64,000 nt of DNA from Thermodesulfobacteriota bacterium (GTDB lineage Bacteria; Desulfobacterota; Desulfobacteria; Desulfobacterales; JAUWMJ01): assembly GCA_034189135.1 (NCBI GenBank), contig JAXHVO010000065.1:18164-82163 (forward strand), written 5' to 3'. Below the pieces are notes generated by a model that had not been told where the DNA came from, searched no databases, and was given only the letters and a program-made list of their open reading frames with translations. A program made the position numbers and the translations under genes. Shown piece by piece: positions 2,040 to 37,557 of the stretch. Positions within the stretch are counted from its first letter, which is position 1. Every line of letters begins with the position of its first letter.

Positions 2040-2498
2040 AAAAATTACCACGGAAGGCCACGGAATATCACTGGAAAAATAACATGGGCAAATTGCTTTA
2101 TGAAGAAATAACTTATAAAATTATCGGGTCAGCTCGGGAAGTACATAAACAACTGGGACCAGGTTATCTGGAATCAGTTTACGAAGACGCTCTATGTTAC
2201 GAACTTGATTTGTTAAAAATAGACTATGAACGACAAATAGAGTTAGATGTACAATATAAAGAAGTTATATTTTCAAAAAAGTTTCGAGCTGATCTTTTAA
2301 TAGAAAACAAAATTCTTGTTGAGAACAAGGCGATAAAAAAAATAACAAATCAGGACGAAGCCCAATTAATCAATTATCTTAAAACAACCCGTTTGAGGGT
2401 GGGATTGTTATTTAATTTTGGAGCAGATAAGTTTGAAATGCTAAGAAGAGTATTTTAATTATCCGGTGTAACTCCGTGCTGTTCCGTGGTAAAAAAAA
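2038..2498. repeat. Inverted-repeat element carrying the GxxExxY gene
   Basis: The left arm (2046-2074) begins TTACCACGGAAGGCCACGGA. The right arm (2463-2491) ends in its near reverse complement, CTCCGTGCTGTTCCGTGGTAA. The arms flank the 124-aa gene at 2084-2458 with nothing else between them. The arm ends resemble those of the gene-free family B elements at 3209 and 27211, so the short copies may be internal-deletion forms of this one. That relationship is inference. No target-site duplication could be identified with confidence. Confidence 0.7.
2084..2458 (+). CDS. GxxExxY family protein
   Basis: A 124-aa cytoplasmic protein of the GxxExxY family; the signature is seen as GPGYLESVYEDAL at about residues 25-37. 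The later ENKAIKKI and LINYLKTTRLRVGLLFNFG segments are also typical. The pattern of acidic and lysine residues (RADLLIENKILVENKA) resembles a PD-(D/E)xK nuclease-like core, but function is unestablished. The family is widespread as small orphan genes in repeat-rich genomes. It has no operon partner here. The gene is more AT-rich than argS and is bounded on both sides by inverted repeat arms, which suggests insertion as a unit between argS and the SPOR gene. The Shine-Dalgarno is weak. Confidence 0.88.
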   Translation: MGKLLYEEITYKIIGSAREVHKQLGPGYLESVYEDALCYELDLLKIDYERQIELDVQYKEVIFSKKFRADLLIENKILVENKAIKKITNQDEAQLINYLKTTRLRVGLLFNFGADKFEMLRRVF

Positions 2499-2502
2499 TA
2501 AA

Positions 2503-3198
2503 ATGACAAAAAACGAACCGGCAGATAAGGAAAAACCTTCCCCCTGGAAAAATCGCAAACACTTGACCATGTGGGCTTTAATCGTTTTATTTGTTGCGGC
2601 TTGGATGTTTGCCCTGGGAATCTTTGTGGGCAGAAAAACCACGCCCGTCGCCTTTAATTTAGATAAGCTTGAGGGAGAACTGGCAGCTTTAAAGCAGGCG
2701 GACATTGAGAAACAGCGAAAAAAGGCGAAAATTGACTCAGATACGGCCAATGGAAAAATTGACTTCGATTATTATGACAAATTAAAGGAGAGTAAAAATA
2801 TCAATAAGAGAAAGCCTGCGACAAAAAAGCCCAAAATAAAGCCTTTATCCGAAAAAAAAATAAAAAAAAGAACAAAAAAGAAAGATATAAAAACTCAGAT
2901 CGCAAAACCTTCAAAACCACCTCAAAAAGAAAAGAGTATAAAGCCTGAAAGAAAGAATAAAGGTGAAAAAAAACTGACCATACAGGTTGCCTCACTAAAA
3001 GATTCGAAAGATGCAGACCGGATGGTGGAAAGACTGAAAAAGAAGGGATATGCTGCATACAAGGTCATGGGCGTTATTCCAGACAAGGGAATATGGTTCA
3101 GGGTCAGGGTGGGGCATTATAAAAGCAGTGCCGGAGCTTCCGACACAATAAGGCGTCTGGAAAAAGACGGCTTGGATGTGTTTCTGGTGAACAGGTAA
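2503..3198 (+). CDS. SPOR-domain inner-membrane protein
   Basis: A 231-aa bitopic protein. It has a short cytoplasmic N-terminus, one membrane segment at about residues 18-38 (LIVLFVAAWMFALGIFVG), a long Lys-rich charged linker (about 75-150), and a C-terminal SPOR domain (about 155-231, starting KLTIQVASLKDSKDADRM). SPOR domains bind denuded peptidoglycan glycans at division sites. The frame stays open back to a GTG at 2476, but that codon lies inside the repeat arm, so the ATG at 2503 (MTKNEPAD) is the likely start. Linkage of a SPOR protein to argS is common in related bacteria (general knowledge). Confidence 0.85.
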   Translation: MTKNEPADKEKPSPWKNRKHLTMWALIVLFVAAWMFALGIFVGRKTTPVAFNLDKLEGELAALKQADIEKQRKKAKIDSDTANGKIDFDYYDKLKESKNINKRKPATKKPKIKPLSEKKIKKRTKKKDIKTQIAKPSKPPQKEKSIKPERKNKGEKKLTIQVASLKDSKDADRMVERLKKKGYAAYKVMGVIPDKGIWFRVRVGHYKSSAGASDTIRRLEKDGLDVFLVNR

Positions 3199-25238: not shown

Positions 25239-25625
25239 TTATTTTTTCAGAATTCGGGCCTGTCCGTCAAAAAAGCAGCCTTGGGCCACAGTGATTTTCC
25301 CTGCATTGATATCGCCGATCATGCGGCCGTTGGATCTTAGTTCTACATGGTCTGCCGATTTAATACATCCATTGATCTCTCCTTCAATGATCACCCTTCG
25401 GGCACGGACTGTTCCTTCAATTCTTCCTGTTTTTTCAATCCATACCATCCGTTTGCAGTCAATGTCGCCTTTGAAATCACCCGAAATCCTAAGGGTATCT
25501 TCTCCTTTTATATTCCCGGTGAAACGGGTATCGGAAGCAATAACGGTTACTGCCGATCCCACCTCGTCTTCAAGGGATTTCTGATCTATTTTGATAAATT
25601 TACCCTTATTTTTGTTAAAAATCAT
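25239..25625 (-). CDS. Bactofilin
   Basis: A 128-aa polymer-forming cytoskeletal protein. The beta-helical core (about residues 28-120) shows the short hydrophobic repeats VTVIASDTRFTGNIKGEDTL, RISGDFKGDIDC, GRIEGTVRARRVIIEGEING and GRMIGDINAGKITVAQGC. Bactofilins polymerise without nucleotide and often scaffold peptidoglycan enzymes or chromosome-segregation proteins. It lies divergent to an HU gene and an HU-TM-LysM fusion, a suggestive association with DNA/cell-wall organisation. Confidence 0.93.
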   Translation of the reverse strand: MIFNKNKGKFIKIDQKSLEDEVGSAVTVIASDTRFTGNIKGEDTLRISGDFKGDIDCKRMVWIEKTGRIEGTVRARRVIIEGEINGCIKSADHVELRSNGRMIGDINAGKITVAQGCFFDGQARILKK

Positions 25626-25906: not shown

Positions 25907-26200
25907 GTGAATAATAGTGAATTTATCAAACGCTTGTCTGAGAGGACAGGACGGTCGCAGCGTGAAATCAGACGGTTATTGGGCCATATTACTGCGATCA
26001 TCCGAAAAACGCTGGATGAAGATTTAAGATTCACTATACCCAGGCTCGGTACCTTTGGAACCCGTATCCGACAAAAACGAAAAGCCTATCATCCACTTGT
26101 TAAAAAGTATATGATGCTGCCGCCCAAGCGAATCGTATCTTTCAATGCCAGTTCCATCCTTAGAAAAAACGTAAAAGGCGAAAGCCATGAAAAGAAATGA
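25907..26200 (+). CDS. HU-family DNA-binding protein
   Basis: A 97-aa protein of the HU/IHF fold. The N-terminal helices are EFIKRLSERTGRSQREIRRL. FTIPRLGTFGTRIRQKRKAY corresponds to the core strand and the start of the DNA-binding arm; the arm is shorter and divergent from canonical HU. The C-terminal segment IVSFNASSILRKNV is typical. The GTG start has ACGGAG 6 nt upstream. It overlaps the following HU-LysM fusion gene by 14 bp, so the two are likely co-translated and could heterodimerise through their HU domains (inference). Confidence 0.85.
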   Translation: MNNSEFIKRLSERTGRSQREIRRLLGHITAIIRKTLDEDLRFTIPRLGTFGTRIRQKRKAYHPLVKKYMMLPPKRIVSFNASSILRKNVKGESHEKK

Positions 26201-27170
26201 TAAGATAACCTTTTCGGATCTGGTGGGGCGTATTGCAGATGAGGCAAAAGTTTCCCAGAATGCGACACGCCACTTACTCAAAGAAATGTCATCCATTATC
26301 GATGACCGGCTTGTCCAAGAGGGTAAGGTCAGTATCAGCGGCCTGGGGATTTTTAAGCTTAAATGGCAAGCCGCCAAAACGGGTATGAATCCACAGACCG
26401 GTGAACCGATTGAAATTTCATCACAAAACCGGGTTGTTTTCAAACCGGCAGCGGATTTGCGCAGGTATATAAACCGGAGCTATGAAAATGAACAACCTGA
26501 ATACATTGATGATGTCAAAGATACCCCAGCGGTTTATTCCGAAAAACCGAATTTTCGCACAAGATGGCCCACCACCAAGCGGGTGGGTTTACTTATTGTG
26601 CTTATATTGCTTATTTTGTCAGCTATTTTTTATGTATTCAAGCCCTCTGTTAAATCGCCGGTCACGGTTAAGAGAAATCTGCAACAGGGGACGGAAAAAG
26701 TTCCAGGTCAGCCTGCTGAAAAATTGCTTACAGGTAAAAAATCGGTCGATTCTCCTTTCAAATCAGTTGTTTCATCCGGGGGTGCAGCTCACCCGGTGGA
26801 CAAATCCGGATATACCCAACATATTACAACAGGAGACACCCTTTGGATGATTTCGAAAGCGTTTTATGCGGATCCATTCCTGTGGCCCAACATATTCCGG
26901 GTCAATCTCAGCGTGATCAAAGATCCGGATGTGCTTGAAGTCGGTGAAACAATCCGTACCCCACCCCTTGAGGGGACGGCTGAGCATTTGACTCCAAGGG
27001 ATAGGATGAACATTGCCGATGGCTATTTCCAGGTATATTTGGCCTATCGTCGGCTGGGGAAAAAAAAGGCGCCACTTTTCCTGCGGGTGGCCAGACAATA
27101 TAATGTGCCGGAAATATCCGCCCGATACAAAGATAAATTAGAGAAAAGTAAACCTGCTTCGAATAAATAG
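26187..27170 (+). CDS. HU-domain / transmembrane / LysM fusion protein
   Basis: A 327-aa protein. The N-terminal HU-like domain (about 1-95) has FSDLVGRIADEAKVSQNATR, ISGLGIFKLKWQAAKTGMNP and RVVFKPAADLRRYIN, keeping the DNA-arm PQTGEPI segment. A single membrane helix lies at about 132-151 (GLLIVLILLILSAIFYVF). A C-terminal LysM-type domain (about 208-258) has HITTGDTLWMISKAFYADP and IKDPDVLEVGETI. With positive residues before the helix, the topology is N-in/C-out, placing HU in the cytoplasm and LysM in the periplasm. It could tether DNA to peptidoglycan. The function is inferred. Confidence 0.85.
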   Translation: MKRNDKITFSDLVGRIADEAKVSQNATRHLLKEMSSIIDDRLVQEGKVSISGLGIFKLKWQAAKTGMNPQTGEPIEISSQNRVVFKPAADLRRYINRSYENEQPEYIDDVKDTPAVYSEKPNFRTRWPTTKRVGLLIVLILLILSAIFYVFKPSVKSPVTVKRNLQQGTEKVPGQPAEKLLTGKKSVDSPFKSVVSSGGAAHPVDKSGYTQHITTGDTLWMISKAFYADPFLWPNIFRVNLSVIKDPDVLEVGETIRTPPLEGTAEHLTPRDRMNIADGYFQVYLAYRRLGKKKAPLFLRVARQYNVPEISARYKDKLEKSKPASNK

Positions 27171-27394: not shown

Positions 27395-28426
27395 ATGAAA
27401 TTCGAGGCCCAAGAAAAAGAAACCGTCATTTTAAACCCTGTCAAGAACATGGAACGCAGATCGATCTCCAGTGAAATACGCCTGGATCCCCTGACAGGCA
27501 GAAGTGCGCGAATCTGCCATTTTATGGAACTAAAATGGGAAAAGCCGGATTTTGAAAAAATAATTGCCGGAACCGAAGAATATTGTCCCTTTTGCCCGGA
27601 CAAGGTCATGAAAGTCACCCCTTTATTTCCTAAAGAGATCGTGCCGGAAGGTCGAATGGTTTCAGATGATATGGTTCTTTTTCCCAACATCGCTCCTTAC
27701 GACAGCCTGGGTGCGGTGGCAACCCTTGGCAGCCGTCATTATATTCCCATGACAGAAATTAAGCCTGAGCGTATTGCCAAGGCATTTCGTCTTGCCATGG
27801 ATTTTTTTAGTCGAATCCACCAAATCGGACATGCGGAATCGGTGTATCACATTATTAACTGGAATTACATGCCGGCTTCAGGAAGTTCCTTGATTCATGG
27901 CCATCTTCAGGTGTTTTCCACCTCTTTTGCGCCAAACCTGATGCGGGAGGAACTGGAAGCGGCAAAGACATATTTGGAGGTGAACCAAACGAATTATTGG
28001 GATGATCTTGTGAAAAGGGAAAAAGCAAGCGGAAAACGGTTTTTAGGAACCATCGGCCGCAGCAACTGGTTCAGCGCATATGCTCCCATGGGAGTTGCCG
28101 GCGATGTGCTGGCAGTGGTGGATGATGTTCGATCCACCCTTGAACTGACGGATGATGATCTCTTAGACCTGGCAAGAGGTCTCACCCGGGCCATGGCTGC
28201 CTATGATAAAATGGGTATTTACAATTTTAACATGAATTTTTTCACCGGCAAAGAAACCGATGATTTTGCGCGATTTCACCTGCTGTTTTCACCCCGGACT
28301 TTTTTCAACCAGGCATTGGGCACTCCCGACATAGGTGCTCTGAGAAACCTTTTTAACGAAACCCTTTGCATGGCTTTTCCCGAGGATATAAACAAAATGC
28401 TTAAACCGGAGTTTTTATCAATATGA
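27395..28426 (+). CDS. GalT/HIT-superfamily nucleotidyltransferase-like protein
   Basis: A 343-aa protein resembling galactose-1-phosphate uridylyltransferase and Ap4A phosphorylase-type enzymes. A CPFCPDK motif (about residues 65-71) could bind zinc. The HIT-like active segment is SSLIHGHLQVF (about 165-175). Other conserved parts are NWNYMPASGS and FNMNFFTGKETDDFARFHLL. The substrate cannot be given; a sugar-1-phosphate or dinucleotide is possible. AAAGGAGG fixes the ATG. It overlaps the following binding-protein gene by 4 bp. Confidence 0.75.
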   Translation: MKFEAQEKETVILNPVKNMERRSISSEIRLDPLTGRSARICHFMELKWEKPDFEKIIAGTEEYCPFCPDKVMKVTPLFPKEIVPEGRMVSDDMVLFPNIAPYDSLGAVATLGSRHYIPMTEIKPERIAKAFRLAMDFFSRIHQIGHAESVYHIINWNYMPASGSSLIHGHLQVFSTSFAPNLMREELEAAKTYLEVNQTNYWDDLVKREKASGKRFLGTIGRSNWFSAYAPMGVAGDVLAVVDDVRSTLELTDDDLLDLARGLTRAMAAYDKMGIYNFNMNFFTGKETDDFARFHLLFSPRTFFNQALGTPDIGALRNLFNETLCMAFPEDINKMLKPEFLSI

Positions 28427-36804: not shown

Positions 36805-37557
36805 TTACAAATACGTTCTTGCACCGACATATCTGGATCTATAATATTTTCCTGAAAGTGAATCTCTGCGGATTTTTTTGCCGGTTCCCGATGCGTGGAT
36901 AAATTTATTATTTCCCGTATATATCCCCACGTGAGATATTTTTTTCCATCCTATGGTTGCAAAAAAAACCAGGTCTCCTTTTATTAACTGACTGCGTAAA
37001 ACAGGTTTTCCGACTTTCCACTGTTGTATGGAAGAGCGTGGGAGATTCAATCCGTTCAGCCGATAAACCGTCATGGTTAGCCCACTGCAATCAAACCCTT
37101 TTTGGGGAGAAGCCCCCCCCCATAGATACGGAACCCCAATAAAATTTTCGGCTGTTTTTACAATGGAACTTCTGATGCTGTTTTCATCTCTCAGATACTG
37201 TGGGCTGACAATATAAAAGTTATCAATAGTGCCATTGGCCTTAAGGAGTTCGGCTTTTTTGCGGGCTGCATTTTTGGTGGGAAAGTTGCCGAAGCGAACC
37301 TTATACAAACCCGATTGGTGAACAAAATGATACGCATTGAGTCCCTGACGTTGCAAGGTGTTGGTCAGCCTTAGCGCATTTCTTTGATTGGAAAATGCTC
37401 CGGCCTGAACGGCAAAATGAGCTGGGGCAAGAAATTTGGTTGAAATATATGGTGTTGAAGTCGGAGTCACAGTTGTAGAACCACCGCAACCTGATAAAAA
37501 CAATAAGAGGATAACAACAATATGGACTTTAGCACAAGATTGGTATTTGGTTCCCAT
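36805..37557 (-). CDS. SPOR plus NlpC/P60 lipoprotein endopeptidase
   Basis: A 250-aa lipoprotein. The signal peptide has lipobox LFLSGC (Cys about residue 24). A SPOR domain (about 45-120) has FAVQAGAFSNQRNALRL and YKVRFGNFPTKNAARKKA. A C-terminal NlpC/P60 domain (about 130-250) has the catalytic Cys in FDCSGL, His in SHVGIY and a second His in FIHASG. It likely cuts peptidoglycan stem peptides and is placed at denuded glycans by SPOR. It faces purN convergently. Confidence 0.93.
   Translation of the reverse strand: MGTKYQSCAKVHIVVILLLFLSGCGGSTTVTPTSTPYISTKFLAPAHFAVQAGAFSNQRNALRLTNTLQRQGLNAYHFVHQSGLYKVRFGNFPTKNAARKKAELLKANGTIDNFYIVSPQYLRDENSIRSSIVKTAENFIGVPYLWGGASPQKGFDCSGLTMTVYRLNGLNLPRSSIQQWKVGKPVLRSQLIKGDLVFFATIGWKKISHVGIYTGNNKFIHASGTGKKIRRDSLSGKYYRSRYVGARTYL

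Follow-up and report, generated by a model that had tools for sequence, protein, structure and literature searches.

A conserved pair of overlapping HU genes

Two overlapping genes in the window, by which we mean the entire 64,000-nucleotide stretch of Desulfobacterales DNA analyzed here, form a conserved pair that was overlooked when the second of them was first described from the sequence. The first, HU-S (25907..26200, +), encodes a 97-amino-acid soluble subunit of the HU/IHF type, and the second, HU-T (26187..27170, +), starts with ATG and encodes a 327-amino-acid protein in which an HU domain is followed by a membrane helix, a LysM domain, and a C-terminal tail. We judge the chances to be about evenly balanced that HU-S and HU-T pair up as an IHF-like heterodimer, one subunit of which crosses the membrane and is anchored to peptidoglycan. 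That this split, IHF-like, DNA-bending heterodimer, in which one subunit is itself the anchor, constitutes a direct two-protein tether between nucleoid and cell wall is in our view a credible prospect that falls a little short of even.

Full-length orthologues of HU-T are found in a genome of the same genus (G002, 69% identity) and in two genomes, G020 (41%) and G010 (31%), that represent two other families of the order, and the pair is thus present in 4 genomes from 3 families. HU-S lies directly upstream of HU-T in all 4. The original prediction had HU-T overlapping a separate HU gene, and it does so by 14 bp shared with 25907-26200; with start codons chosen by alignment, the overlap is 14 bp in the window, 14 bp in G002, 8 bp in G020, and 11 bp in G010. 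The GTG start of HU-S is preceded by GGAG, as is the HU-S start in each of the four genomes, and the protein is assigned by Pfam to Bac_DNA_binding (E 8.5e-18, 64.8 bits against a cut-off of 22.4). Since the same architecture occurs in one open frame in 3 further genomes at 69, 41, and 31% identity, an assembly accident as the origin of the HU-T architecture can be ruled out.

Domain anatomy and topology of HU-T

HU-T had been described as an HU domain fused through a membrane helix to a LysM domain, and Pfam, hydropathy, and a profile match to the solved protein Kbp together confirm this description. Residues 10-96 (26214..26474, +) match Bac_DNA_binding (E 2.6e-21, 76.1 bits against a cut-off of 22.4), an assignment consistent with the alignment and with a sequence search in which the HU part matched solved IHF and HU chains, the best of them a single-chain IHF (2.6e-15). 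The protein has one hydrophobic stretch, whose best 19-residue segment (aa 133-151; 26583..26639, +) has a mean hydropathy of 3.07 and which appears in the structure model as a helix at 130-150 with low to middling confidence; a hydropathy scan of the whole protein gave no second window above 1.2. Taken alone, the Pfam assignment of residues 213-259 (26823..26963, +) to LysM is thin, as it barely passes the cut-off (E 2.7e-4, 21.3 bits against 20.9). In a PDB profile search, the LysM domain and tail of the four orthologues, combined into a profile, matched Kbp over its LysM at 4.8e-9, and the structure model also contains this domain. The last 65 residues (aa 263-327; 26973..27167, +) are conserved in the orthologue alignment and mostly helical in the model, with no Pfam match up to E 0.01. 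A SPOR domain was sought in HU-T with Pfam and gave no match up to E 1, and PHROGs returned general HU and LysM-type matches only.

The natural reading of this anatomy is a predicted topology with HU in the cytoplasm and LysM in the periplasm, because HU-T has a single helix, no other hydrophobic stretch, and no hydrophobic N-terminus. The 15 residues on either side of the helix carry net charges (before/after) of +4/+4 in the window, +3/+2 in G002, +2/+1 in G020, and +3/−2 in G010, so that the charge rule would favor a cytoplasmic N-terminus weakly across the orthologues and not at all in the HU-T of the window.

Distribution of the pair

The HU-T family is rare. The searches of the order, class, and phylum samples scored at most the best 4 candidates per genome and could be escaped by strongly diverged members, and within this scope 4 of the 389 order genomes yielded a full-length match to the HU-T profile; 12 genomes matched in all, 8 of them at the HU end only. 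The class sample (389 genomes, E <= 1e-22) likewise yielded full-length members in 4 genomes and none beyond those already known, although the class-sample genomes listed all belong to the same single order as the order sample, which it probably repeats to a large extent. In the phylum sample (395 genomes) the LysM part was matched in the window's genome only, the other 11 of the 12 matching genomes being matched at the HU end alone. With a profile of the LysM domain and tail, 12 of 194 genomes of the order were matched, the four known genomes including the tail and the other eight over the LysM only. A profile of HU-S at E <= 1e-17 recovered 4 of 291 genomes of the order, and these are identical to the four that carry HU-T. 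The survey of the HU-TM-LysM architecture that the original prediction called for therefore finds it conserved, in 4 genomes of 3 families.

Searches beyond these samples added little. None of 1238 matching plasmid records and none of 23 matching phage records cover 80% of the query, and among the best 80 of 401 viral contig stretches no match extends past query residue 124. Public genome contigs contain one relative, whose ORFs are those of the G002 contig. G020 and G010 are each the sole representative of their family among the genomes available for comparison. The third genome of the window's own family (G001, 75% complete) contains no copy of the pair. The flanking gene 27395-28426 also lacks a close counterpart there (31% identity at best), so that loss of the pair and a gap in the assembly look alike in this genome.

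Genomic neighborhood and the bactofilin

A bactofilin gene (25239..25625, −; Pfam E 1.3e-27) lies upstream of the pair, 281 bp from HU-S, and could be a possible, although not a needed, part of the system. The original prediction had it facing HU-T. It is indeed nearby, but it is divergent from HU-S, points away from the pair, and does not directly adjoin HU-T. Conservation of this linkage does not extend beyond the genus. A bactofilin adjoins the pair in 2 of the 4 genomes, the window's and G002, both of one genus; tblastn with the window's bactofilin found no match at E <= 1e-3 in the surroundings of the pair in G020 (19 kb) and G010 (20 kb), and a family search placed the bactofilins of these two genomes on contigs other than the pair's. 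We therefore reject the bactofilin as a fixed partner, as it stands beside the pair in the window and G002 alone.

Other neighbors recur to differing extents. Two SPFH/Band 7 genes lie upstream and a monofunctional peptidoglycan transglycosylase lies downstream of the pair in the window and in G020, and by ORF reading also in G002; neither was recognized by eye in the 20 kb of G010, where two ORFs were scanned. The next gene after the pair (27395-28426, +) has copies that are 92% (G002), 70% (G020), and 68% (G010) identical. The copy in G002 adjoins the pair, that in G010 is about 4 kb off, and the G020 copy sits on a different contig. The gene matches no Pfam family (best E 0.064), and by eye it looks like a relative of galactose-1-phosphate uridylyltransferase.

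Several further genes with related domains were seen along the way. A further HU-bactofilin neighborhood lies in G010 at a site apart from the HU-T locus (L123 5239-6440, G010:C90:26238-27439), where roughly 350 bp separate the HU gene L083 from a bactofilin ORF on the same strand (Pfam E 1.9e-26). Within the window, 36805-37557 (−) joins a SPOR domain (E 1.5e-14) to an NlpC/P60 peptidase (E 1.6e-32) in what by eye is likely a lipoprotein, and 2476-3198 (+), two genes downstream of what by eye is likely an arginyl-tRNA synthetase gene, combines a likely membrane helix (by eye) with a C-terminal SPOR domain (E 6.7e-15).

HU arms, phylogeny, and selection

The arm of the HU domain of HU-T (GMNPQTGEPIEI, within 26214..26474, +) retains the pattern GxNPxTGExIxI. 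Among the four HU-T proteins, 8 of the 14 columns of the arm (64-77) are invariant versus 32 of the 90 columns of the HU domain (8-97). Immediately before NP, the three orthologues have R and the window protein has M. In the alignment of the four HU-S proteins the arm keeps the proline, lacks the usual TG, is basic, and contains an invariant LPPK. The window's HU-S is strongly basic (25 K+R, 8 D+E), whereas the HU domain of its HU-T is only mildly so (17 K+R, 12 D+E).

HU-T and HU-S are types distinct from the ordinary HU/IHF genes of these genomes, of which four or more are present in each of the five genomes searched, the pair excluded. A tree of 33 HU domains, comprising 25 ordinary ones (of 26, the gene L083 being left out), 4 from HU-T, and 4 from HU-S, gathers HU-T into one clade and HU-S into another, both with supports of 99 or more; branches are long, and the attachment of the two clades among the ordinary HU/IHF domains is unsure. 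A separate HU domain (E 1.4e-23) occurs at the C-terminal end, aa 478-561, of a 568-aa frame in G004 (L024 70-1776). This frame, in whose first part Pfam finds no family up to E 0.01, may be a fusion or the product of a wrong start.

A simple Nei-Gojobori count between the window and G002, which gives rough values over such short stretches, yielded dN/dS of 0.18 for the HU domain of HU-T, 0.43 for the helix, 0.30 for the LysM, 0.26 for the tail, and 0.36 and 0.68 for the two linkers; HU-S gave 0.24 and the bactofilin 0.11. By this measure the HU, LysM, and tail are under purifying selection and the linkers are laxer, a pattern expected of a working multidomain protein.

Structure models and the function of the HU pair

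The full-length model of HU-T has a pLDDT of 60.3 and is weak outside the LysM and tail. The blocks covering the LysM (211-260) reach pLDDT 83-93, the mostly helical tail reaches 79-93 except in its last few residues, and the HU part modeled alone (residues 1-100) gives ten-residue blocks of 42-68. Foldseek with the full-length model returned no match at E <= 0.001. When HU-S and the HU domain of HU-T (25907-26514) were modeled as one chain, the one pairing that the modeling covered, the result had a pLDDT of 83.9 and a pTM of 0.73. VIA-align superposed this joined model on the single-chain IHF scIHF2 (2iie) with Z 10.8 and 2.4 A over 136 residues, spanning model residues 1 to 192 and chain residues 3 to 139 of 204, and because 136 residues exceed one half of the model, both halves must take part in the match. 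A missing HU dimer interface had been named as an outcome that would tell against the original prediction; such an interface is predicted as a heterodimer with HU-S, in a single joined-chain model. AF2 may return a dimer for whichever two HU domains it is given, and the joined model favors the heterodimer as support rather than proof.

Three structures rank above scIHF2 by Z, namely 8snb_1K (12.7), 9io5_T (11.8), and 8v3l_A (11.8), with rmsd of 3.3-4.8 A over 145-157 residues. All three come from doublet microtubules or the gliding machinery of Mycoplasma mobile, settings that do not involve DNA binding, and may be tandem HU folds of the CCDC81 type. They speak for a reading in which the HU pair does not bind DNA. 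If it were instead a protein-docking module, HU-T would be an adaptor from the wall to a cytoskeleton or to a complex. There is precedent for such a role in RodZ, whose DNA-binding-like domain acts in protein docking, and in the CCDC81-type HU domains, to which the same purpose has been attributed, and the bactofilin neighbor in 2 of the 4 genomes would fit it as well. We nevertheless regard docking as unlikely, although worth keeping in view. The arm of HU-T is better conserved than the rest of its HU domain, HU-S is strongly basic and retains the arm proline, and the rmsd to scIHF2 is below that of the three higher-ranking chains, while G010 and G020 are without a bactofilin near the pair.

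The LysM invites a different question. It resembles that of Kbp, which is potassium-binding by name, and a DNA-binding domain joined by a membrane helix to a periplasmic sensor is a layout already known from regulators of the ToxR/CadC type. HU-T could on this basis be a one-component regulator that senses the state of the wall or a small ligand through its LysM and, by way of the HU pair, alters transcription of a few genes at the membrane. We think this improbable, since HU/IHF domains are generally architectural and not activating. That HU-T is a chance gene fusion kept by drift, with no membrane or wall role, would suit its rarity (4 of 389 genomes in the order, 1 of 395 in the phylum sample) but deserves very little credence and is strongly disfavored by the orthologues, as the protein and its partner gene persist together in three families, at identities as low as 31%, and its HU, LysM, and tail are under purifying selection.

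A putative link between nucleoid and cell wall

Our preferred reading is of a dedicated IHF-like heterodimer, made up of HU-S and the HU domain of HU-T, which would bind and probably bend DNA. HU-T would span the inner membrane and expose its C-terminal LysM in the periplasm, and because it would thus both cross the membrane and carry a LysM, the heterodimer would keep its bound DNA at the membrane while the LysM would link it to peptidoglycan. Such a tether could perhaps position a region of the chromosome or couple wall growth to the nucleoid.

The steps of this proposal draw on different kinds of evidence. The domain anatomy, the overlapping gene pair, its matching occurrence, and the selection on HU, LysM, and tail are observations, whereas the topology is predicted. 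Pairing of the two subunits is predicted by the joined model and backed by the co-occurrence of HU-S and HU-T, and from the HU arms we infer that the pair may bind DNA. Wall binding is suggested by the LysM, by analogy with Pseudomonas putida FimV, whose LysM binds sacculi (PMC12918733). Binding of HU-T to the wall is not assured, since its LysM falls near the Pfam cut-off and its nearest solved relative, Kbp, is named for potassium binding. The M for R in the arm of the window protein, its mildly basic HU domain, the rarity of the family, the flat charge around the helix with its small bias in two of the three orthologues, the ranking of non-DNA proteins above scIHF2 by Z, and the lack of recognized SPFH and transglycosylase neighbors in G010 also count against a tether. 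Judged from the sequences as a whole, nucleoid-wall tethering by HU-T is a plausible putative function.

The question of how a bacterial chromosome and the envelope are fixed relative to each other is still open, and the links known to date mostly run through several proteins. If the proposed tether is real, a two-gene module linking a DNA-bending dimer to the wall would make this question testable in a reconstituted system.

Comparison with known systems

No HU-LysM protein is named in the titles and abstract openings of the literature listed, a body that covers few subscription papers. A close parallel is the group of HU-membrane-SPOR proteins of Bacteroidota, for which Burroughs, Kaur, Zhang, and Aravind reportedly proposed a chromosome-envelope link in 2017 (Cell Cycle 16:1093). 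These are said to resemble HU-T in that a single chain combines HU domains with a membrane helix and a domain that binds peptidoglycan, and to differ from it in that the wall-binding domain is SPOR and the lineage is Bacteroidota, whereas HU-T has a LysM and belongs to another phylum. HU-T also has one HU domain per chain, with the second HU encoded by a separate overlapping gene. If both proposals hold, they would point to repeated recruitment of the HU fold for linkage to the envelope, each time with a different wall-binding domain. HU-T and HU-S differ from the CCDC81-type HU proteins in falling below the corresponding Pfam cut-offs, HU-T with 18.9 bits against 35 (bac_2) and HU-S with 17.9 against 26 (bac_1) and 13.8 against 35 (bac_2).

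IHF itself, like the proposed pair, is built from two different HU-fold subunits, and the predicted HU-S/HU-T heterodimer superposes on its single-chain form. The pair differs from IHF in the predicted membrane anchoring of the HU-T subunit, in scores far below the IHF equivalog cut-offs of NCBIfam (55.5 bits for HU-T and 33.4 for HU-S, against 111 at best), and in that the genomes with HU-S and HU-T retain ordinary HU/IHF genes too.

HubP and FimV reach DNA through other proteins, whereas HU-T itself carries an HU domain. According to PMC12918733, HubP places oriC at the pole in Vibrio and Shewanella, and in P. putida, FimV plays no part in segregating the chromosome. As described there, HubP and FimV share with HU-T a periplasmic LysM, one membrane region, and a cytoplasmic part, but their LysM is N-terminal and their acidic/TPR-type cytoplasmic part C-terminal, an order reversed in HU-T (PMC12918733). 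A second point of reference is Rv3852, a mycobacterial nucleoid protein whose C-terminal helix holds the DNA-bound protein at the membrane and whose loss disturbs nascent peptidoglycan synthesis (PMC8233713). It is like HU-T in being a nucleoid protein anchored at the membrane and differs from it in that the abstract and passages of PMC8233713 that describe it mention neither an HU nor a peptidoglycan-binding domain. In the BacNOP-PadC-ParABS system of Myxococcus, a bactofilin scaffold organizes the chromosome segregation machinery, and the abstract of PMC5703909 describes no HU or LysM fusion in it. The HU-S/HU-T pair differs further from that system in having a bactofilin adjacent in one genus only.

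To call HU-T a new kind of tether, as the original prediction did, was to overstate the case, given that Rv3852 has been published and that HU-membrane-SPOR proteins were reportedly proposed earlier in a similar role. The principle of a DNA-envelope link is known, and what seem to be new, within the literature and genome samples covered here, are its LysM form, the split of the HU pair over two overlapping genes, and the lineage in which it occurs.
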